Source: a virus. From it: a stretch of 30,542 bases of DNA. The position numbers and the translations under genes were made by a program. The stretch spans positions 1 through 30,542 of the IMG/VR virus record IMGVR_UViG_3300033144_005855; one strand, written 5' to 3'. The notes below the pieces were generated by a model. That model searched no databases, had not been told where the DNA came from, and was given only the letters and a program-made list of their open reading frames with translations. Positions 11,348 to 27,049 of this stretch are shown piece by piece (the stretch's first letter is position 1; each line of letters opens with the position of its first letter).

Positions 11348-11824
11348 ATGGCCTTAACAAAATTTTCAGATCTGCCAGTAAGATCTAATGGGAGCAAAAT
11401 TGAAGCGTCGTGGTTCAATTCAATGCGAACTTTATTGGTTCAAATTTTTGGTGATATTCAGGGAGAATCAAGTCTGTCAGTAGGGCAGACCGATACGAAT
11501 CAAACTGTAACTGAAATTGCGAATGTCGATAAACTAGATTTTTCAATGATTGACGTTGAATATATGTTAAGGCGAAGGACTGACACCACTGAAGTGATGC
11601 AGTCAGGACGGTTCTCCATCCAATATTTAATAAGTGCAAACTCATGGCGAATAAAAGGCGATCAAGAAAATATAAATGGCGATGACGGCCAAATTGAATT
11701 TAGTTTATTAGAAGATACTGGTGGCGGTTCAAATTTAGTGACATTAAGATATTCAACAACGACAATAAGTGGCGCAAGTCATACTGGCGATTTAAAAGTG
11801 AGGGCTAAAAAATGGATTGCATAA
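11348..11824 (+). CDS. Tail-fibre-associated protein of unknown family
   Basis: The 158-residue protein has the start TKFSDLPVRSNGSKIEASWFNSMRTLLVQIFG, a motif often seen at the N-terminus of fibre-attachment proteins ('I....fN.l...lv...'; compare the related NAIRSAFIG in the preceding fibre). The rest is beta-rich (VEYMLRRRTDTTEVMQSGRFSIQYLI ... NLVTLRYSTTTISGASHTGDLKVRAKKW). I do not recognise a family. The strong AGGGGAAGG site and a 13-nt overlap with the next fibre gene support co-translation of a tail-tip module. Confidence 0.6.
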   Translation: MALTKFSDLPVRSNGSKIEASWFNSMRTLLVQIFGDIQGESSLSVGQTDTNQTVTEIANVDKLDFSMIDVEYMLRRRTDTTEVMQSGRFSIQYLISANSWRIKGDQENINGDDGQIEFSLLEDTGGGSNLVTLRYSTTTISGASHTGDLKVRAKKWIA

Positions 11825-14800
11825 AAAACTTAATACTTATTTTTTTATTATCTATCGGTTCCTGTAGTCAAAGTTATGCTTGGGATAAGTCTAATAGTGT
11901 CGGTTCACCAGCACTTGATGCTTCAGCTATTTTTCAAGTAAACACTACGACTAAGGCCTCAATGCCTTGCCCTAAAATGACACTGGCAGAACGAGATTTA
12001 ATCTCTGCTCCCGTAAGTGGTATTTGTATTTATGACACGACGACAGACAGTTTTGAAAATTATGACGGGACTGTTTGGAAAAAAATGGGCGGTGGTTTAA
12101 GCACTTGGGAAACCGTTACTGTTTATCGAATAGACGATGTCGTTCACGAAAGCAATAAAATATATAAAGCTTTGACCGATCATACTTCTACAGTTTTTGC
12201 AGTCGATTTAGCAGCAAATGAGTGGATTGAAATTTCAGATGACCTTAATCGAGAAACGAGTGTCACTGATACGGCTTTAGTACTATGGGATGGAACTGGT
12301 GGCGATGATGTAAAAGATTCAAGCATATTAGTGGACGGTTCAAGTAATATAACTGGAGTCAACGATTTAACAATGACAGGGGCTTTAACTTCAGTCGGTT
12401 TTAATTCAGATATTTTAGATTTATTGCAAGTAACTACTCCATCGAATCCCAGCGCAAGTAGGGATAAACTTTATTTTAAAAGTGACGACAAACTTTATAA
12501 ATTAACAAATGGTGGAGTTGAGACAGAGGTAGGCGCTAGCGTATCTTTTGCAAATGACAATCGAATTTTAAGATCTGATACAATTGGTTCTGATAATTTA
12601 CAACAATCAGGAATAACTTTAAATGACACTGACGATATTAGTGGCGTTAATGATATTGAAGCTCTTGGAACGATCACTGTCCAAACTCCCACTGCTTTAG
12701 ACTTCAAGGAAGTTGGAGAAAAATATAAAGGTGAAGAAAATTTTTTCTTAAGAGGCCAGTCAGATTATGGTTTGGTGGCCGACTGGACTGGTTCAAATTT
12801 GACTCAAGATGCCACTGCCTCAAACTTTTTGACTGGTGAATTTTCTGTTTGGAAATGGACTGACACGACAACTATTTCGAATGACCTTGTCAGTGCTGTC
12901 ATTGATATACCTAAAGGCTTAAGAAGCTCTGATATTGGTTATCAATTCAGATATAAATACGATGGTGATGACGACGACATTGATACTTTAATTCAATGCG
13001 TGGACGACTCAGCTTTTTTAGTTTCAGATGGTGAACATAAGCTTGAAGCATTTACTGAGACAACGGGTTCAGCTTTTGCTTCTGGCGAATTTGCTCCCGC
13101 TGGTTGTACTCAAGTTAAATTTATTTTCAAAGTAGCGATTGCAAATTCAGGCAAAGAATTATTTTTTGATAGCGTAAAAATAACTCCATTCAATGCAACT
13201 ACAAAAAAATTACAAATAAAAGAAAGTTATAGAATTGACGGATTAACTGGACACGGTTCAACAAATACGGTTATTCCTTATTATGCAAATCAAAGAACGA
13301 ACACGTTAAACGTATCAGGAACTATTGCAAACGATTCTACTAATGGTTTTTCTTTTACTGCTAAAACAAGAACTCTAATTACTTTTACTCATGTCTCGGA
13401 TGCTTCAGGAGTAGCATTAAAAAATATTGGAATAAGTTTAAATTCAAATCAATTAACAACCAGTATTGTTTCAATAGATAATGACGACAGACTTGCTGTT
13501 GCGATAGGAACTGCGGGCGGTTATTCAGTAACGGTCACTTGGTCAGGAATCATGGAAGCTGGCGATGTGATAAGACCTCATTTGCAAGACAATTATACTC
13601 ACAATAATAATGCCATAAATAGTGTTTCAATTTCAACTCTCACTGATTCAAGTACACTTGTAAGAAAAACTAATCCTAACGAAGTTGATTCCATGATAAG
13701 ATTTCATACTGGAAATGGTCATGGTTCTAGCTCAACAAAAATAAGAAGATTTACTAATTATACAATTGACAATTCCGTTGCATTTGCATCGGCTTCTGCT
13801 CAAACAATAACCACTAATGCTATTGAATGCATTGACTCATCTACATTGGGCTTGGTTTGCGAGGTTTTATCAGATGGGACTTATCATATTTCTTATACAG
13901 AAGTAAGTTCTGGGGGAAGTATATTAAGCGCTGGTCTCTCATTAAATTCAACTGAATTGACTACTTCGATTCAATCTATAAATGCGGATGACAGATTATC
14001 CACTTTGGCTTTGATTGCAGGAAATTTTCCCGGTGTTTCAAAATGGTCAGGCGCTTTAAAAAAAGGGGATAAAATAAGACCTCATACTGACAGTAATGTG
14101 GAATCTTTGGATGCAAGAGCAACTTTTACAATATCAAAAGCAAGAGTAAGCCCTCACGTTTCTATTCCTATCGACGATGAGTTTCAAAATGAATTTAGTG
14201 CAAGAATTGCTAATAATGGAACTGCGACAATAACAAGTGACAATGGTTCATTTATACAATCTGTGAATCGTTCCGCTCTTGGTTATGTCGACGTGGTTTT
14301 TGTTGCCGGTTTTTTTACTGCTATACCAGCGGTTGGGCAAAATCTTGAGTCGTCTGGAACTTTTTTGTCTATTCATACTTTAACAACTTCTGGTTTTACT
14401 GCTGAGATAAGAAACCATTTGGGAGCTTCTGGCGATTTTGATTTTTCATTTACACTGTCAAGGCAAGGGACAGGTTTTAAAAAGAAGACAGGAATAGTGA
14501 CAGGGAAATTTGCAGCGACAAGAACTTGCATAATTGAAGATAGGAAAAGTTCTGTTGGAGGTGGAACCTCGACATCAACAACTGTTCATACGAGAACTTT
14601 AAATACAGCAAATGGAGATTGTGAATTTTTGACATTACAAAACGGAACGACTGGAATAGGTGGGACTGCAAACCAACTCGATTTAGTGAAAGGAAAATAT
14701 ATTATAAATTGTTCAGCTCCATCGTATAAATCAGAGCAATCTCAAATTCATTTGTATAACACTTCTGATTCTACGATTGATTTAACAGGGACCGCTGGCC

Positions 14801-14997
14801 ATACCGCCAACGCAGGAAACTCGGCAACAATTTCTCTCCTGTCCGGAAATTTTACATTAATTGCCACTAAGACTTTTGAATTAAGACAATTCATTACTGT
14901 TGGTAGTGCAAATGGTTTAGGAGTTACAGCGAATCATGCAAGTAATCCGGCAACGTATGATATATTTTCAAAATGTGAAATAAATAAAGTAAGATAA
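11812..14997 (+). CDS. Large tail fibre/adhesin-like protein with N-terminal signal peptide
   Basis: The 1061-residue protein begins with a typical signal sequence, MDCIKNLILIFLLSIGSCSQSYA, with either a lipobox-like IGSC or Ala cleavage before WDKS. Residues about 23-95 (SPALDASAIFQVNTTTKASMPCPKMTLAERDLISAPVSGICIYDT...YDGTVWK) match a pattern frequent in phage and bacterial fibre proteins. Next comes a short module (TVYRIDDVVHESNKIYKALTDHTS) like carbohydrate-binding or fibre modules. Two related domains follow at about residues 478-592 and 627-760, sharing HGS-T, I-SLNS-(Q/E)LTTSI-SI--DDRL, W-G and G--IRPH. It starts inside the previous gene behind a GAGGG site. A signal peptide on a fibre is unusual: either it is exported, or the N-terminus is retained as an anchor. 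Confidence 0.75.
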   Translation: MDCIKNLILIFLLSIGSCSQSYAWDKSNSVGSPALDASAIFQVNTTTKASMPCPKMTLAERDLISAPVSGICIYDTTTDSFENYDGTVWKKMGGGLSTWETVTVYRIDDVVHESNKIYKALTDHTSTVFAVDLAANEWIEISDDLNRETSVTDTALVLWDGTGGDDVKDSSILVDGSSNITGVNDLTMTGALTSVGFNSDILDLLQVTTPSNPSASRDKLYFKSDDKLYKLTNGGVETEVGASVSFANDNRILRSDTIGSDNLQQSGITLNDTDDISGVNDIEALGTITVQTPTALDFKEVGEKYKGEENFFLRGQSDYGLVADWTGSNLTQDATASNFLTGEFSVWKWTDTTTISNDLVSAVIDIPKGLRSSDIGYQFRYKYDGDDDDIDTLIQCVDDSAFLVSDGEHKLEAFTETTGSAFASGEFAPAGCTQVKFIFKVAIANSGKELFFDSVKITPFNATTKKLQIKESYRIDGLTGHGSTNTVIPYYANQRTNTLNVSGTIANDSTNGFSFTAKTRTLITFTHVSDASGVALKNIGISLNSNQLTTSIVSIDNDDRLAVAIGTAGGYSVTVTWSGIMEAGDVIRPHLQDNYTHNNNAINSVSISTLTDSSTLVRKTNPNEVDSMIRFHTGNGHGSSSTKIRRFTNYTIDNSVAFASASAQTITTNAIECIDSSTLGLVCEVLSDGTYHISYTEVSSGGSILSAGLSLNSTELTTSIQSINADDRLSTLALIAGNFPGVSKWSGALKKGDKIRPHTDSNVESLDARATFTISKARVSPHVSIPIDDEFQNEFSARIANNGTATITSDNGSFIQSVNRSALGYVDVVFVAGFFTAIPAVGQNLESSGTFLSIHTLTTSGFTAEIRNHLGASGDFDFSFTLSRQGTGFKKKTGIVTGKFAATRTCIIEDRKSSVGGGTSTSTTVHTRTLNTANGDCEFLTLQNGTTGIGGTANQLDLVKGKYIINCSAPSYKSEQSQIHLYNTSDSTIDLTGTAGHTANAGNSATISLLSGNFTLIATKTFELRQFITVGSANGLGVTANHASNPATYDIFSKCEINKVR

Positions 14998-18132: not shown

Positions 18133-18400
18133 TATAAGGTATTTTTGCAGCGGTTGGCGTAAGCCTTTAGTGTAGTTTAAATACCTAGGTCACGTTTTTA
18201 GCTAAAATGATGATACGGTCTTGTCGACGGGTAAGAAGCAAAGCAAAATTTCTGAAACAATGAATCGGAAGACTGCGGAAATGGTAAGCCGCCACTAGAG
18301 TTAACAATTAAGACACTCACGCTGCTCTTAAAAGGCATCTCACCCTTTCGGAATTTACACTTTTTTGAATGGTCGAGTAATTCTAAGGAAGACCATTAAA
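18133..18400 (+). ncRNA. Gene-free stretch with features of a structured RNA (unidentified)
   Basis: No reading frame of note occurs between 18133 and the minus-strand stop at 18416, and the stretch looks less AT-rich than its surroundings. Complementary segments visible by eye: AGGTATTT/AAATACCT (18137-18144 with 18179-18186), enclosing a GGC-GTAA-GCC hairpin with a GNRA-type loop (18156-18165); CGGTCTT/AAGACTG (18216-18222 with 18269-18275); GCGG/CCGC (18275-18278 with 18289-18292); AAAGG/CCTTT (18331-18335 with 18344-18348). The loop segment GCAGCG (18147-18152) can pair with CGCTGC (18320-18325), which would form a pseudoknot. GTAAG recurs three times. I could not match it to tmRNA, RNase P, 6S, tRNA or a known riboswitch. 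The strand is assumed +, as a continuation of the late transcript. Confidence 0.4.
18368..18397. other. Inverted repeat between convergent genes
   Basis: AATGGTC (18368-18374) and GACCATT (18391-18397) pair over 7 bp with a 16-nt loop. Flanking T (18361-18366) and A (18398-18402) runs allow the stem to extend past a mismatch. It lies where the late + strand transcript and the minus-strand H1-like gene converge, so a bidirectional terminator is possible. Neither strand has a clean U-run on the 3' side, so the assignment stays open. Confidence 0.3.
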
Positions 18401-18415
18401 AATCTTTTACATCAT

Positions 18416-18718
18416 TTAAGCATTTAAAGCAGTATTTATTTTCTTATCAAGAAAATCAAAATTAAAGTCTATTTTATCTAATTTTGCTTTAATTTTTTTT
18501 GCCTGGGCAAGGGTCATGGTAATAGGAAGCCGACCTAAAACAGAAGTAGCTCGATTTCCTGCTGTGGATACAGGCACCCTCGCTTTTTTAGTCGCCTTGC
18601 GTGCTGTCGTTGCCTTTAAGGGAGTTGTATTCGTTTTTTTTGAAGCTGCTTGAATTTTGCTTGTCGTCTTCTTACTCGCTGCTTTTTTAGTCACTGCTTT
18701 TTTTGTAGCTTTTGCCAT
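18416..18718 (-). CDS. Histone H1-like Lys/Ala-rich DNA-binding protein
   Basis: The product of about 100 residues has an N-terminal half built of KKA/KKT repeats (AKATKKAVTKKAASKKTTSK ... ATTARKATKKARVPV), typical of histone H1-like and AlgP/Hc1-type nucleoid proteins that bind DNA without sequence specificity. Unlike pure tails, it has an ordered-looking C-terminus (GRLPITMTLAQAKKIKAKLDKIDFNFDFLDKKI). Tandem ATGs exist at 18721 and 18718; AAGGA is 7 nt from the second, so I prefer 18718. It is transcribed opposite to the rest of the genome from a near-consensus promoter. A role in compacting or shielding phage DNA or altering the host nucleoid is inferred. Confidence 0.8.
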   Translation of the reverse strand: MAKATKKAVTKKAASKKTTSKIQAASKKTNTTPLKATTARKATKKARVPVSTAGNRATSVLGRLPITMTLAQAKKIKAKLDKIDFNFDFLDKKINTALNA

Positions 18719-18750
18719 CATAAATTCCTTGTTAAAAAAATAGTTGAGTG

Positions 18751-18779
18751 ATTCTAATTGCGTTTATTGTCAATGTCAA
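18751..18779 (-). promoter_or_regulatory. Consensus sigma70 promoter for the H1-like gene
   Basis: On the minus strand TTGACA (18774-18779) and TAGAAT (18751-18756) are separated by exactly 17 nt. The transcript would start near 18744, about 26 nt upstream of the start codon. TTGACA is tandemly repeated (TTGACATTGACA). This is one of the strongest promoter matches in the window and implies early or constitutive, host-polymerase expression. Confidence 0.75.
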
Positions 18780-18829
18780 ATTTTAGGCATAAGTCATTGA
18801 GATGAGATAATAAAACAGAAATTAAGTGT

Positions 18830-18858
18830 TTGATTTTCTAAGTCAGTTACCTTAAGAT
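18830..18858 (+). promoter_or_regulatory. Candidate promoter for the replication operon
   Basis: TTGATT (18830-18835), 17 nt, TAAGAT (18853-18858) on the + strand matches sigma70 spacing with imperfect boxes. It lies about 220 nt upstream of the initiator gene, so it would produce a long structured leader. Confidence 0.4.
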
Positions 18859-19080
18859 TTTGAAAAATAAAAAACTTTGAATAAAAAAAGAGTTTTTTAT
18901 TGCGCTCTCCTCGACGAAAATTTGAGCGCAATAAATGAAAAACAACATGAACAGGTAAGCTAGCGCACTTCTAACGCTATTTCAATGTTCATGTCAATTT
19001 CAATCTAAATTTATTCTTATTTTTTTAATGCCGATGCAATTCCATTGGGCATTAATATTAAATAATCAGGAGGTATATTC
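18859..19080 (+). promoter_or_regulatory. Hairpin-rich noncoding leader upstream of the replication initiator
   Basis: This stretch has no gene but three inverted repeats. The first is TTTATTGCGCTC/GAGCGCAATAAA (18896-18907 and 18924-18935, 12 bp perfect). The second is ACATGAACA/TGTTCATGT (18945-18953 and 18986-18994), enclosing a shorter TAGCG/CGCTA pair (18961-18965 and 18975-18979). The third is TTAATGCC/GGCATTAA (19025-19032 and 19048-19055), with an inner CAAT/ATTG. None is followed by a T-run, so they are not ordinary terminators. A strong AGGAGG (19069-19074) follows. The region could hold operators, origin structures or a regulatory leader RNA. Confidence 0.5.
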
Positions 19081-19878
19081 GTGGGTAGAAAGAGTAATTA
19101 TTTTAGGCATTCGTTTAATGCGCATGAAGATATAAAAATTATGGAACTAATAGAGAGGGGGGGTATTAAATGCGTGGGCGTTTATTTCGTTCTTTTAGAG
19201 ATATATGGAAGCATGATTATGGACGATGACAATCAAAGTTTTAAGCAAAACATTAACACTAGACGCATAGCAAACGCTGTCGGACTGAGGTCGGACTCGT
19301 GTCGGACTTGCATCGAACTGATAGCGGACTGCAAACTAATTGAGGCAGTCCGATTCAAGTCACCTATCAGTTACTTTGAAGTAGGTATACCTAACTTCTT
19401 GAAATACTTCGGTCGCTATTCAAAAACAGAGACCATCAAATGCCCTAATAAAAGAAAAGAAAAAGAAAAGAAAGAAAAGGAAATGAAAGAAAAGGAAAAA
19501 CCAATAAATATTATTCCTCAGAGAATTTTTCAATTATTTATTTCTAAGTTTAGCGGCACGTTAAAAATTCCTAAAATATTAGGTGACGATGAAATAAAAA
19601 ACATCGGAATTTTGTCAGAGAAATTTATTCACAACTTGGAAGAATGGAATTTATTTTTTGAGAAAATAAAAACAACAAATTTAATAGAAAATAAATCTGA
19701 AGCAGATTGGAAGCCAAGTTTCGATTGGTTGGTAACGCCAAAAAACGCCATTAAAATAATAAACGGGAATTACGATTGTAATTTCAATGGAAACAAAAAC
19801 AATAAATTCATTTCAGACGAGGAGGAAAATGCGCAATTTATGAGAATAATAAAAAACGCAAATCAAGACAATTTATAA
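19081..19878 (+). CDS. Replisome organiser / phage replication initiator (DnaD-N/Lin1244-like)
   Basis: The 265-residue protein starts at GTG 19081 with AGGAGG 6 nt upstream. The N-terminus (NYFRHSFNAHEDIKIMELIERGGIKCVGVYFVLLEIYGSMI ... NINTRRIANAVGLRSDSCRTCIELIADCKLIE) has the form of the winged-helix domain of Lin1244/Lin1753-like phage replication proteins ('F.hd.na..D.ki..l....G..gyg.y..llE'). A highly charged linker (KRKEKEKKEKEMKEKEK, about residues 124-140) separates a C-terminal domain. The wHTH domain binds origin DNA and recruits the helicase loader in related phages. The coding sequence itself contains five 11-bp-spaced CGGACT-type repeats and an A/G-only tract, suggesting the origin is internal, as in lambda O. 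Confidence 0.72.
   Translation: MGRKSNYFRHSFNAHEDIKIMELIERGGIKCVGVYFVLLEIYGSMIMDDDNQSFKQNINTRRIANAVGLRSDSCRTCIELIADCKLIEAVRFKSPISYFEVGIPNFLKYFGRYSKTETIKCPNKRKEKEKKEKEMKEKEKPINIIPQRIFQLFISKFSGTLKIPKILGDDEIKNIGILSEKFIHNLEEWNLFFEKIKTTNLIENKSEADWKPSFDWLVTPKNAIKIINGNYDCNFNGNKNNKFISDEEENAQFMRIIKNANQDNL
19281..19352 (+). repeat. Iteron array, probable replication origin inside the initiator gene
   Basis: CGGACT occurs at 19281, 19292, 19303 and 19325, with CGAACT at 19314, so five sites have an exact 11-bp period. An inverted AGTCCG is at 19347-19352, forming CGGACTGC/GCAGTCCG with 12 nt between. Because 11 is not a multiple of 3, the repeats fall in different codon phases and do not produce a protein repeat, so the constraint is on DNA. 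A helical-turn period suits cooperative initiator binding on one face. Confidence 0.7.
19450..19500 (+). other. A/G-only purine tract, candidate DNA-unwinding element
   Basis: Fifty of 51 bases are purines and mostly A, interrupted by a single T at 19484. It lies about 100 bp downstream of the iteron array within the initiator gene and encodes the Lys/Glu linker. In lambda, an asymmetric A-rich region next to the O-binding iterons is the unwinding site. The same role here is inferred. Confidence 0.4.
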
Positions 19879-19901
19879 TAATTTTAATCAAGGATTTTGA
19901 A

Positions 19902-20387
19902 ATGGAAAACAAAAAGATTTTAATTGTAAAGCTTATGTTGAAAATGTCACAAGCATTAAATCATAAGCAATCAGACGTTAAATTGAAAATGTATGTTGAG
20001 AAATTAATTCATTACGAGATTGAGGAAATTAAATACGCCTTCGCACAAGTCGTTTATGAATTAAAGTTTTTCCCGACGCTATTGGAAATTGAAAATTATA
20101 TTAATCCTAAAGAAACCGAGCGTGACAAAATTGATAAAGTGTTTACAGATTTAGTTGAAATTTCAAACAATCCAATTGAATACAAGCAATTTATGGACGT
20201 ATTTAGTAACGCTCATATTTTATCAATGCAAAAACATGGAAAATGGAATGATTTAATTTCTGGGAAAGTTGACAAATATTATCTAGAGAAAGCCTGTCGA
20301 TCGGCAGTCAAAGAATTAAATCTAAAAAGCAAGAAAGAAAAAATGAAAGAGTATATCGAAAATCAAAAACGACAGGAGTTGGAATGA
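19902..20387 (+). CDS. Putative helicase loader / replication accessory protein
   Basis: The 161-residue, largely helical protein has the N-terminal pattern VKLMLKMSQALNHKQSDVKLKMYVEKLIHYEIEEIKYAFAQVVYELKFFPTLLEIENYI. The 'Y...L......el..A.......FFPt..Ei' core is common in phage helicase-loader/G39P-like proteins that follow the initiator gene. There is no Walker motif, so it would be a loader adaptor rather than an AAA+ ATPase. The rest is Lys/Glu rich. Spacing (24 nt after the initiator gene, AAGGATTTTGAA before ATG) supports one operon. It overlaps the next micro-gene as ATGA at 20384. Confidence 0.5.
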   Translation: MENKKILIVKLMLKMSQALNHKQSDVKLKMYVEKLIHYEIEEIKYAFAQVVYELKFFPTLLEIENYINPKETERDKIDKVFTDLVEISNNPIEYKQFMDVFSNAHILSMQKHGKWNDLISGKVDKYYLEKACRSAVKELNLKSKKEKMKEYIENQKRQELE

Positions 20388-24964: not shown

Positions 24965-25534
24965 ATGAAAGTTGAAATTAAGTGCAAGGGCAGTCGAAAT
25001 GCAAAACTTGATGACCTAAAACCGTTGCAGGGCGATCTAAAAGAATTATCAGAAGAAAATTATAATAAATTAAAAACAGAAATATTAGATCTCGGATTTT
25101 CTGCGCCATTTTTTGTTTGGTCTCACATCGAGGGCGTGGCAAGAGATACCCTAGATTTACTTGACGGGCATCAACGCAGCAAGACTTTAATTTGTATGCG
25201 TGAAGAAAAAATCGAAATGCCTGACGAATTCCCAATTGTTGAAGTTGATGCGAAATCTTACAAGGAAGCAAAGAAAAAAATTCTCGCTATAAGTTCAAAT
25301 TATGGAACCATGACAACGCTTGGCCTTGAATCATTTATGGAAGATATTGACATGGAGCTGGATGAGATCGCGGAGGCATTTACTTTTGATGCAATCAATT
25401 TTGATCGAATGGCGGAAATGAATAAACCTGTCGAGGAAAATTACGGCGATAAAAACAATGAAATAGATACCGATAATTTTGGAAACGATCTTCAGCATAC
25501 TTGTCCTTCCTGTGGGTTTGAATTTAATGGATAA
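24965..25534 (+). CDS. ParB/sulfiredoxin-fold nuclease-domain protein
   Basis: The 189-residue protein begins with the ParB-like fold (LDDLKPLQGDLKELSEENYNKLKTEILDLGFSAPFFVW ... LDLLDGHQRSKTLICM) containing the DGHQR motif (67-71) that corresponds to the ParB GERR/phosphate-binding box. It ends with CPSCGFEF (Cys180, 183), half of a zinc ribbon. Phage ParB-like proteins of this type are commonly encoded beside DNA methyltransferases. They are not plasmid partition proteins and may act as CTP/ATP-dependent or nuclease-like factors. Here it lies just before the HNH endonuclease and the cytosine methyltransferase, suggesting one modification module. Confidence 0.8.
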   Translation: MKVEIKCKGSRNAKLDDLKPLQGDLKELSEENYNKLKTEILDLGFSAPFFVWSHIEGVARDTLDLLDGHQRSKTLICMREEKIEMPDEFPIVEVDAKSYKEAKKKILAISSNYGTMTTLGLESFMEDIDMELDEIAEAFTFDAINFDRMAEMNKPVEENYGDKNNEIDTDNFGNDLQHTCPSCGFEFNG

Positions 25535-25556
25535 TTAAAAAAGGATTGGGTGTGAA

Positions 25557-26087
25557 ATGAAGGAAGTATGGGAAAGGATTAAAGATGAGCGGTACGACGT
25601 TTCGTCGAAAGGTAACATAAGAAGTCATCGGTATATGAAAAATCTAAGGCATCAGATTAATAATTGTGGGTATGCTCGAATTGCTTTAGGTTCGACAAAA
25701 AACAGGAAGTTTGTTCATAGGCTTGTCGCTGAATACTTCTGTGAAAAATCATTGAGTAGAGACGTAGTTAACCATGTAGATGGAAATAAATTAAACAACT
25801 CAAGTGGCAATTTGGAATGGACAACAAGGTCAGAGAATGACTTGCATAAGTTCAGGATAGGCCTTGCTTTGGCAAGTAAATGTCAAGACTCATCAAGGGC
25901 AAAGCTTTCAAACGAGCAGGTATTGAAGGTATGTACGATGCTTAATACTGGTATTGCGTGCACCCACATTGCTATCGAGTTCAAAGTTAAAAGAAAAACA
26001 ATAAGCGATATAAAGTTGGGAAAAACATGGAATTCACTTACAAATGGAATATTACAGACCTCAAAAAAGTTAAAAAGAATGGATTGA
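25557..26087 (+). CDS. NUMOD4/HNH homing endonuclease
   Basis: The 176-residue protein has an N-terminal NUMOD4-like motif (WERIKDERYDVSSKGNIRS), an HNH_3-type core (HRLVAEYFCEKSLSRDVVNHVDGNKLNNSSGNLEWTTRSENDLHKF, about residues 55-100) and a C-terminal helix-turn-helix (LSNEQVLKVCTMLNTGIACTHIAIEFKVKRKTISDIKLGKTWNSL). This is the domain order of free-standing phage homing endonucleases, which cut cognate DNA lacking the insertion and spread by gene conversion. It lies between the ParB-like gene and the methyltransferase, overlaps the methyltransferase by 61 nt in another frame, and has AAGG upstream of the ATG. Confidence 0.88.
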   Translation: MKEVWERIKDERYDVSSKGNIRSHRYMKNLRHQINNCGYARIALGSTKNRKFVHRLVAEYFCEKSLSRDVVNHVDGNKLNNSSGNLEWTTRSENDLHKFRIGLALASKCQDSSRAKLSNEQVLKVCTMLNTGIACTHIAIEFKVKRKTISDIKLGKTWNSLTNGILQTSKKLKRMD

Positions 26088-27049
26088 AAGTATTTTCTTG
26101 TTTTGCTTGTGGCGGGGGAAGTTCGTTTGGCTACAAGATGAGCGGATTCGACGTAATTGGTTGCAACGAAATTGACCCTGAAATGATAAAAATTTACAAG
26201 AAAAATCATAATCCGAAATTTGCCTTTTTAGAATCAATCAAGAGTTTTAAACTAAGGGATGACCTGCCAAAAGAATTATACAATCTCGATATACTTGACG
26301 GGTCACCACCTTGCTCTAGTTTTTCCATGGCAGGCGCAAGGGAAAAAGGTTGGGGGAAAAAAAAGAAATTCCGGGAAGGTCAAGTTGCTCAAGTATTGGA
26401 TGACCTGTTCTTCGATTTCATTGAACTAGCTCACAAGTTACAGCCAAAAATTGTAATTGCAGAGAACGTTAAGGGAATGATTCAGGGAAATGCAAAAGGC
26501 TATGTTAAGCAAGTTATAAGTTTATTTAATACTGCTGGTTATGACGTGCAGCTATTTCTACTGAATGGCGCTTCCATGGGTCTACCCCAACGGAGAGAGC
26601 GGGTTTTTTTTATTTGCAGGCGCAAGGACTTACGCATTAGTAAATTGTCAATGACATTCTCAGAGAAGGCGATACCCCTAAAGGTTGCCTTCAAAGGATT
26701 AACAGAGAAGGGTTGTGATAAGAGCTCGTCTAAGAATTATAATTTATGGAAAAAATGCCCGCCAGGCAAAGGCTTGTCTAGTGTACATCCAAAAGGTTCG
26801 CTATTTAACTGGGCTAAATGGTCAAAAGACTTGCCAGCCCCAACACTAACTTCTAATTCGCATTTGTGCTTTCATTGGGAAACCATGCGTGCATTTACAG
26901 TGGTTGAACTGAGCTTAGTGAGCTCTTTTCCTTTAGATTATGTATTTAAGTCTAGTCCGGAGGCTGGTTACCAAATGGGGATGTCAGTCCCACCATTAAT
27001 GATGCACAAAATCTCAAGGGAAATTGCGAGACAATTTTTTGGAGTTTAA
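26027..27049 (+). CDS. DNA (cytosine-5) methyltransferase
   Basis: The 340-residue protein has the C5-MTase motifs in order: motif I FSCFACGGGSSFG (23-35), motif IV GSPPCSSFS with catalytic Cys96, motif VI ENV (146-148), motif VIII QRRERVFFI (188-196), and motif X-like GYQMGMSVPPLMMHKISREI near the end. It transfers a methyl group from SAM to cytosine C5, probably to protect phage DNA from host restriction. No cognate restriction gene is visible, so it looks like an orphan MTase. The start at ATG 26027 gives about 20 residues before motif I, all encoded within the HNH overlap; TTG 26084 is an alternative start. Confidence 0.9.
   Translation: MEFTYKWNITDLKKVKKNGLKVFSCFACGGGSSFGYKMSGFDVIGCNEIDPEMIKIYKKNHNPKFAFLESIKSFKLRDDLPKELYNLDILDGSPPCSSFSMAGAREKGWGKKKKFREGQVAQVLDDLFFDFIELAHKLQPKIVIAENVKGMIQGNAKGYVKQVISLFNTAGYDVQLFLLNGASMGLPQRRERVFFICRRKDLRISKLSMTFSEKAIPLKVAFKGLTEKGCDKSSSKNYNLWKKCPPGKGLSSVHPKGSLFNWAKWSKDLPAPTLTSNSHLCFHWETMRAFTVVELSLVSSFPLDYVFKSSPEAGYQMGMSVPPLMMHKISREIARQFFGV

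Follow-up and report, generated by a model that had tools for sequence, protein, structure and literature searches.

Does a run of five short repeats, set 11 bp apart inside a predicted replication initiator gene, mark the place where a virus begins to copy its DNA? The question is raised by IMGVR_UViG_3300033144_005855, the whole record of which, 30,542 bases long, is referred to here as the window. The N-terminal domain of the initiator (Table 1) is assigned by Pfam to the Lin1244_N winged helix (PF14297, residues 7-92), by a narrow margin of 26.4 bits against a cut-off of 25. The C-terminal part is O-like/DnaD-like, with matches to PHROGs 19658, 10469, 5810 and 345, which cover replication initiation, DnaD-like and O-like proteins (E 5.6e-9 for phrog_19658, 5.1e-7 for 10469 and 3.7e-4 for 345). 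Both sets of matches agree with the earlier note on this DNA, which had placed the gene in a Lin1244-like initiator family. The RepA_N profile (PF06970) is absent from the Pfam matches at E-values up to 1. A pattern-plus-tblastn search of viral and genome contigs found no close relative of the initiator, and neither did a search of phages at 1e-3; when tblastn against phages was extended to an E-value of 10, the matches lay mostly above 0.5, the best being 0.002, and the same limit applied to plasmids gave two matches, both at chance level.

The gene that follows the initiator weakly matches phrog_10105, the family of the gene beside the Lin1244_N initiator in another locus, L005 (E 7.6e-23 for the L005 gene); a search for relatives of the window's own copy found none. 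A Pfam scan of ten window proteins recognised no DnaB-type helicase. Elsewhere in the window, a ParB-like/methyltransferase-like ORF, an HNH-like ORF (by eye) and a C-5 cytosine methylase lie in a row at 24965-27049, and a 1061-aa ORF of the tail region (11812-14997) has a signal-peptide-like start (by eye), which is unusual for a phage structural protein.

Table 1. Coordinates of the features discussed; positions refer to the window unless a locus is named.
Feature	Position	Strand	Remarks
Initiator gene	19081..19878	+	265 aa, GTG start
Predicted helix-turn-helix, codons 60-83	19258..19329	+	helices 60-67 and 71-83; overlaps iterons 1-5
Iteron 1	19280..19290	+	TCGGACTgagg
Iteron 2	19291..19301	+	TCGGACTcgtg
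Iteron 3	19302..19312	+	TCGGACTtgca
Iteron 4	19313..19323	+	TCGAACTgata; core departure non-synonymous, E79
Iteron 5	19324..19334	+	GCGGACTgcaa; core departure non-synonymous, A82
Inverted core copy	19347..19353	-	AGTCCGA on + strand
Purine-rich 5-nt-period tract, initiator hinge	19447..19498	+	lag-5 score 27, 96% purine, 79% AT
Downstream partner gene	19902..20387	+	161 aa; weak phrog_10105 match, E 0.0013
L068 array	L068:1852-1893		TCGACGA x3 + TCGGCGA, 11 bp
L077 array	L077:1698-1735		TCGACGA x3 + TCGGCGA, 11 bp

The array is present as the earlier note had described it: CGGACT begins at 19281, 19292, 19303 and 19325 and CGAACT at 19314, the 11-bp period is exact, and the inverted copy near 19347 is found as AGTCCGA. 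This inverted copy sits in a 16-nt pair of segments (19305-19320 and 19346-19361) that are 88% complementary. The exact word TCGGACT has four copies in the 30,542-base record, all four at the array. AT content over the array is 42-50% (50-base windows, 19251 to 19350), against 54-86% elsewhere in the initiator gene.

When runs of five in-phase hexamers were sought at periods of 7-30, with one mismatch tolerated, this array alone turned up in the window, as two overlapping starts, and at period 11 such a run appears in none of 10 Markov copies of the window. Synonymous recoding of the initiator sequence reproduces the five in-phase hexamers once in 20,000 trials, and recoding of codons 61-90 with phage codon usage never matches their lag-11 score (0/20,000). 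The period is no multiple of a codon. All three frames are used across the copies of the iteron word (V-G-L, S-D-S, R-T, I-E-L and A-D-C), and the array is written in rarer codons than the remainder of the gene (relative usage averaging 0.55 vs 0.75; 4/248 windows as low). On the whole gene, the lag-11 score is matched by 0/4,000 shuffles of codon order, but two other tests are weaker: 377/4,000 permutations of synonymous codons and 4,255/20,000 codon-usage recodings reach it. Two causes seem likely to us: the downstream lysine/glutamate tract has a lag-11 signal of its own, and helix residues carry part of the repeat; the 377/4,000 figure indicates that the amino acids supply part of it. The earlier claim that a period of this kind reflects constraint on the DNA itself is supported. 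The direct repeats that an in-gene iteron origin on the lambda plan would contain are present, beyond chance and beyond coding need.

The earlier note had the repeats right after the winged-helix domain, which is not correct. They occupy codons 67-84, inside the Lin1244_N match; in the predicted helix-turn-helix these codons specify the last part of the second helix, the turn and the recognition helix. This stretch aligns with relatives without gaps. An AlphaFold2 model built with a 30-row alignment has a mean pLDDT of 94 for residue blocks 61-70 and 71-80 and 66.2 for the whole model; a single-sequence model was poor (39.6). Foldseek against the PDB gave nothing for the initiator model at E <=0.001, the best matches being a winged-helix factor (0.014) and DnaD (0.029).

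To the earlier proposal that homologous genes be searched for phased repeats, the answer is that they are common. Weak tblastn matches (E 2-6, not significant alone) pointed to two Vibrio phages, PP270 and 1.154.O. In both, the gene contains five 11-bp repeats of a TCATG type after the N-domain; the 1.154.O protein matches Lin1244_N at 2.9e-10. A profile search contributed the best 80 of 220 viral loci and 18 genome loci, which with the window, L005, L096 and L097 gave 102 loci in total. A Lin1244_N ORF was found in 100 of them and was long enough in 98, and dereplication left 70 genes, window included, each of which was compared with 100 codon shuffles; 150 same-strand ORFs served as controls. 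The shuffles were beaten at lag 5 by 59/70 genes, at lag 10 by 49/70, at lag 11 by 35/70, at lag 15 by 34/70 and at lag 13 by 0/70, the corresponding numbers among the 150 controls being 2, 1, 2, 1 and 0. Under synonymous recoding of the relatives (window excluded, genes scoring <10 left out), at most 1% of recodings were as good in 57 of the 62 genes tested at lag 5 and in 29 of the 39 tested at lag 11.

A second initiator set was collected by a search with the L014 protein and from named phages; 82 of 86 loci had the ORF, and 57 genes remained after dereplication. In this set lags 10, 11, 12, 22 and 23 are enriched (15, 19, 16, 9 and 13 genes) and lags 13, 14, 16 and 17 are not (0, 2, 0 and 2 genes). 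Iterons thus track one or two helical turns. Phased repeats outside the purine tract described below reach significance in 75 of the 125 initiator genes of a combined test; they are not universal. The array had been put forward as an independent case; it belongs instead to a pattern that is widespread among phage initiators. A RecT-based search gave four loci; in one, L005, the initiator is of the Lin1244_N type, but its gene shows no phased array at significance. In one relative, a 343-aa Lin1244_N initiator (L156:2001-3029), a T5orf172/MUG113-type insert apparently lies between the N-domain and the iterons; a Pfam match of this type occurs in 1 of 37 initiators, and its assignment to L156 is a reading of the alignment.

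The midpoint of the array lies within codons 100-179 in 64 of the 75 genes, mostly in the hinge. Arrays in helix-turn-helix codons are limited, among these 75, to the window gene and to L068 and L077, which form one lineage with an N-terminus other than that of the window initiator. The L068/L077 array encodes DSTTIRRLLDELSA, a stretch that on its sequence would be a recognition helix, and 0/20,000 synonymous recodings match it. Other early arrays are those of L115 (ORF called too short at its start), L103 (at the ORF start), and L075 and L070 (short N-part).

An element that the earlier note had missed, the purine tract at 19447-19498, would be a second part of the likely origin. It is a candidate for an unwinding or single-strand loading element. 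Its lag-5 score is matched by 106 of 20,000 synonymous recodings of codons 118-142; the 5-nt signal is thus weaker against the protein null than that of the iterons, and could partly be a Lys/Glu linker. In the relatives the tract is on the coding strand, 3' of the iterons, and of an AGAWW type; the consensus over 377 units from 55 tracts is A 0.99, G 0.92, A 0.98, followed by two mostly A/T positions. A period of 5 does not fit whole codons, and within each unit the leading three bases hardly change whereas the other two are variable; these features argue against slippage as the source of the tract. Where both elements score (lag-5 >=12, lag-11 >=10), the iterons precede the tract in 33/33 genes, with gaps of -4 nt in one, 1-2 or 10-14 nt in 28, 27-34 nt in three and 115 nt in the window. 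The window's gap is atypically long, and counts against reading the locus as an origin on the lambda plan. In TCATG-type genes, the first AGANN unit begins 7 nt past the start of the last TCATG in 41/57 and 28 nt past it in 13/57, a difference of 21 bp, or two turns.

We also scanned IMG/VR for the word (AGAWW)5AGA alone, which returned at least 120 stretches. Among 120 of these (L203-L322), 73 lie in sense ORFs of at least 100 codons, 2 are antisense to such ORFs and 45 are in none; non-coding origins, short ORFs and simple repeats without any connection are all conceivable for this last group. The commonest PHROGs of the 48 sense ORFs in the first 80 loci are replication initiation, primosomal, DnaD-like and O-like, and the unannotated phrog_20981 and 29280 are also frequent. 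Ten tract-gene proteins taken singly gave six matches to replication families, two to unannotated families only and two to nothing (L212, and L209, for which the antisense ORF was given). A control word, GAAWW, gave 71 stretches, 18 of them shared with the AGAWW set, with 26 sense, 4 antisense and 41 without an ORF. When coding, these too fall in initiator-like genes (by eye from N-termini), which rules out AGAWW as the specific word; the common feature is a 5-nt period with purines.

Dereplication of both word scans, with antisense and non-ORF AGAWW stretches dropped, left 66 genes, 65 of them testable. Significant phased repeats are present within 90 nt upstream of the tract in 36/65 and in 0/150 controls. 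The repeat period is 10-11 or 20-23 in 31 of these 36, 24 in three, 9 in one and 15 in one; period 11 by itself accounts for 19/36. The tract persists in genes that differ in their N- and C-terminal parts (Phg_2220_C, for example, is found in 5/37), which makes a shared partner, fold or plain strand chemistry more likely as its basis than one C-terminal domain. Our searches of an open-access library found no description of such a 5-nt tract.

The core word itself recurs elsewhere. An exact triple TCGGACT-N4 array is found in seven viral records. In L009, L013 and L014 it occupies the hinge of a gene that resembles a phage initiator but has a different N-terminus, and lies on the opposite strand, although the L013 protein itself has no PHROG match; the L010 array is low-complexity; and L011, L012 and L015 contain non-coding triple arrays at 11 bp, possibly stand-alone origins or other sites. 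AGTCCGA arrays occur in the Lin1244_N genes L185, L237 and L283, the L185 copy within a hinge array. The exact core, in either orientation (AGTCCGA/TCGGACT), is present in 5/69 other Lin1244_N initiators, barely above chance (shuffles mean 1.9, max 4); shared specificity was rejected on this count, and the shared core is a lead only.

Other accounts of the repeats have to be weighed against an origin. They could be sites for autoregulation or copy control, through initiator repression or handcuffing, with the origin elsewhere, for instance in the 359-bp AT-rich intergenic region at 18722-19080. A binding site within the gene could serve regulation or replication alike; the upstream region is AT-rich and has an imperfect inverted repeat (18932-18953 / 18986-19007), and promoter-like sites number 12 over the whole 18400-20000 stretch, where 6.5 are expected. 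An operator, however, fits the position within the gene and the fixed order and spacing of iterons and tract in relatives less well than an origin does, and no copy of the exact core was found upstream of the initiator gene. We regard this account as unlikely, though it is the likeliest of the three alternatives. The stretch at 18900-19010, with its upstream inverted repeats (TTGCGCTC...GAGCGCAA; CATGAACA...TGTTCATG), is a possible control region in its own right.

A second alternative treats the repeats as an incidental consequence of the protein sequence: residues recur along the helix and are encoded by a few GC-rich codons, and the DNA itself has no role. In its favour, the lag-11 score survives in part of the synonymous permutations. 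It is very improbable in view of a period that is no codon multiple, the reading of the word in three frames, the failure of every recoding of codons 61-90, the rarer codons of the array and the lack of phased five-copy hexamers anywhere else in the window. Slippage can generate tandem arrays, and a recent functionless duplication of an 11-bp unit would be one; yet only the 7-bp core is kept, while the 4-bp spacers differ in every unit, a conserved domain would hardly tolerate an out-of-frame duplication, and other initiators repeat the same plan with other cores. We give such a duplication scarcely any credence.

Taken together, the array is probably the initiator-binding half of an in-gene phage origin on the lambda plan, with an unwinding tract as its complement, as far as sequence comparison can tell. 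Of the earlier proposal of a probable origin within the gene, the phased iterons, the lambda-O plan and the repeats of relatives speak in favour; the GC-skew check that came with it gives no support, as the cumulative curve climbs evenly through 19.3 kb, does not turn there and is uninformative. We infer that the encoded protein binds the array and that opening follows at the tract. The initiator would use its Lin1244_N winged helix to bind the five 11-bp iterons, and because their period is about one helical turn, its molecules may stack on one DNA face into a nucleoprotein array. The purine tract of the hinge would then open and receive the helicase; the variable C-terminal domain may load it, probably together with the product of the next gene. 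With no DnaB-type helicase among the ten proteins scanned, the host enzyme may be used. In the window gene and one other lineage, the reader of the DNA and its target would thus share about 50 bp.

In-gene phage origins have precedent in PMC5499656 and PMC6022878. According to PMC6022878, lambda ori combines four iterons, located within gene O, with a neighbouring AT-rich region of 39 bp that is prone to unwinding; the in-frame deletions ori95 and ori96 in this region spare O function in trans. As a positive control, our test recovered the annotated lambda iterons (O codons 117-144, lags 20 and 23, 0/300 shuffles) and a purine tract directly after them (lag 5, 8/300 shuffles as good). The window resembles lambda in its iterons within the initiator gene and in its pairing of initiator and partner gene (O and P in lambda). 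It differs in two respects: the AT-rich, purine-biased unwinding region of lambda adjoins the iterons, whereas the window's tract lies 115 nt away, and lambda iterons are 18 bp long and spaced 20-24 bp, whereas those of the window have cores of 7 bp that repeat every 11 bp and lie in the codons for a Lin1244_N recognition helix.

SPP1 gene 38 and ORF20 of phage 80alpha are likewise replisome-organizer genes with an origin inside them, and an ORF20 deletion is reported not to be complementable in trans (PMC5499656). RepA_N initiators (pSK41, pTZ2162 and PLE RepA) share a DnaD-like winged-helix N-domain, which binds iterons, and a variable C-domain, according to PMC7145576; the window initiator is of another family, with no RepA_N match. 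The arrangement of double-strand sites followed by a short-period single-strand motif is also that of the Bacillus subtilis oriC, with its DnaA-trio and DnaD recognition element, where, according to PMC10201434, DnaD requires a pair of 5'-TnnT-3' motifs. The complement of an AGANN repeat has 5'-TnnT-3' in each unit, as in the DnaD motif; it is missing from the complement of AGGTT-type tracts, which rules out TnnT as a general motif, so this likeness does not cover all cases. Furthermore, the DnaA-trio has a period of 3 and the tract a period of 5, and a trinucleotide period was not found.

A wider reading would be that many phage initiator families share helically phased, gene-embedded iterons and, at a fixed spacing, a pentanucleotide purine ladder of the AGAWW type on which a conserved partner is loaded onto a single strand, the tract being a phage counterpart of the DnaA-trio, and that in at least two lineages iterons written in helix codons change together with the helix. 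Taken as a whole, we hold this reading tentatively, at somewhat less than even chances. The tract raises the question of what protein would read a single strand in steps of five nucleotides. Where the iterons lie in recognition-helix codons, helix and target are one piece of DNA, and nature has set up an experiment on how the two evolve under that condition. For most uncultured phages no origin is known; if the two-part pattern holds, origins could be called from sequence alone, as one- or two-turn iterons followed by a 5-nt purine tract in initiator genes, and the specificity of an initiator could be paired with its site.
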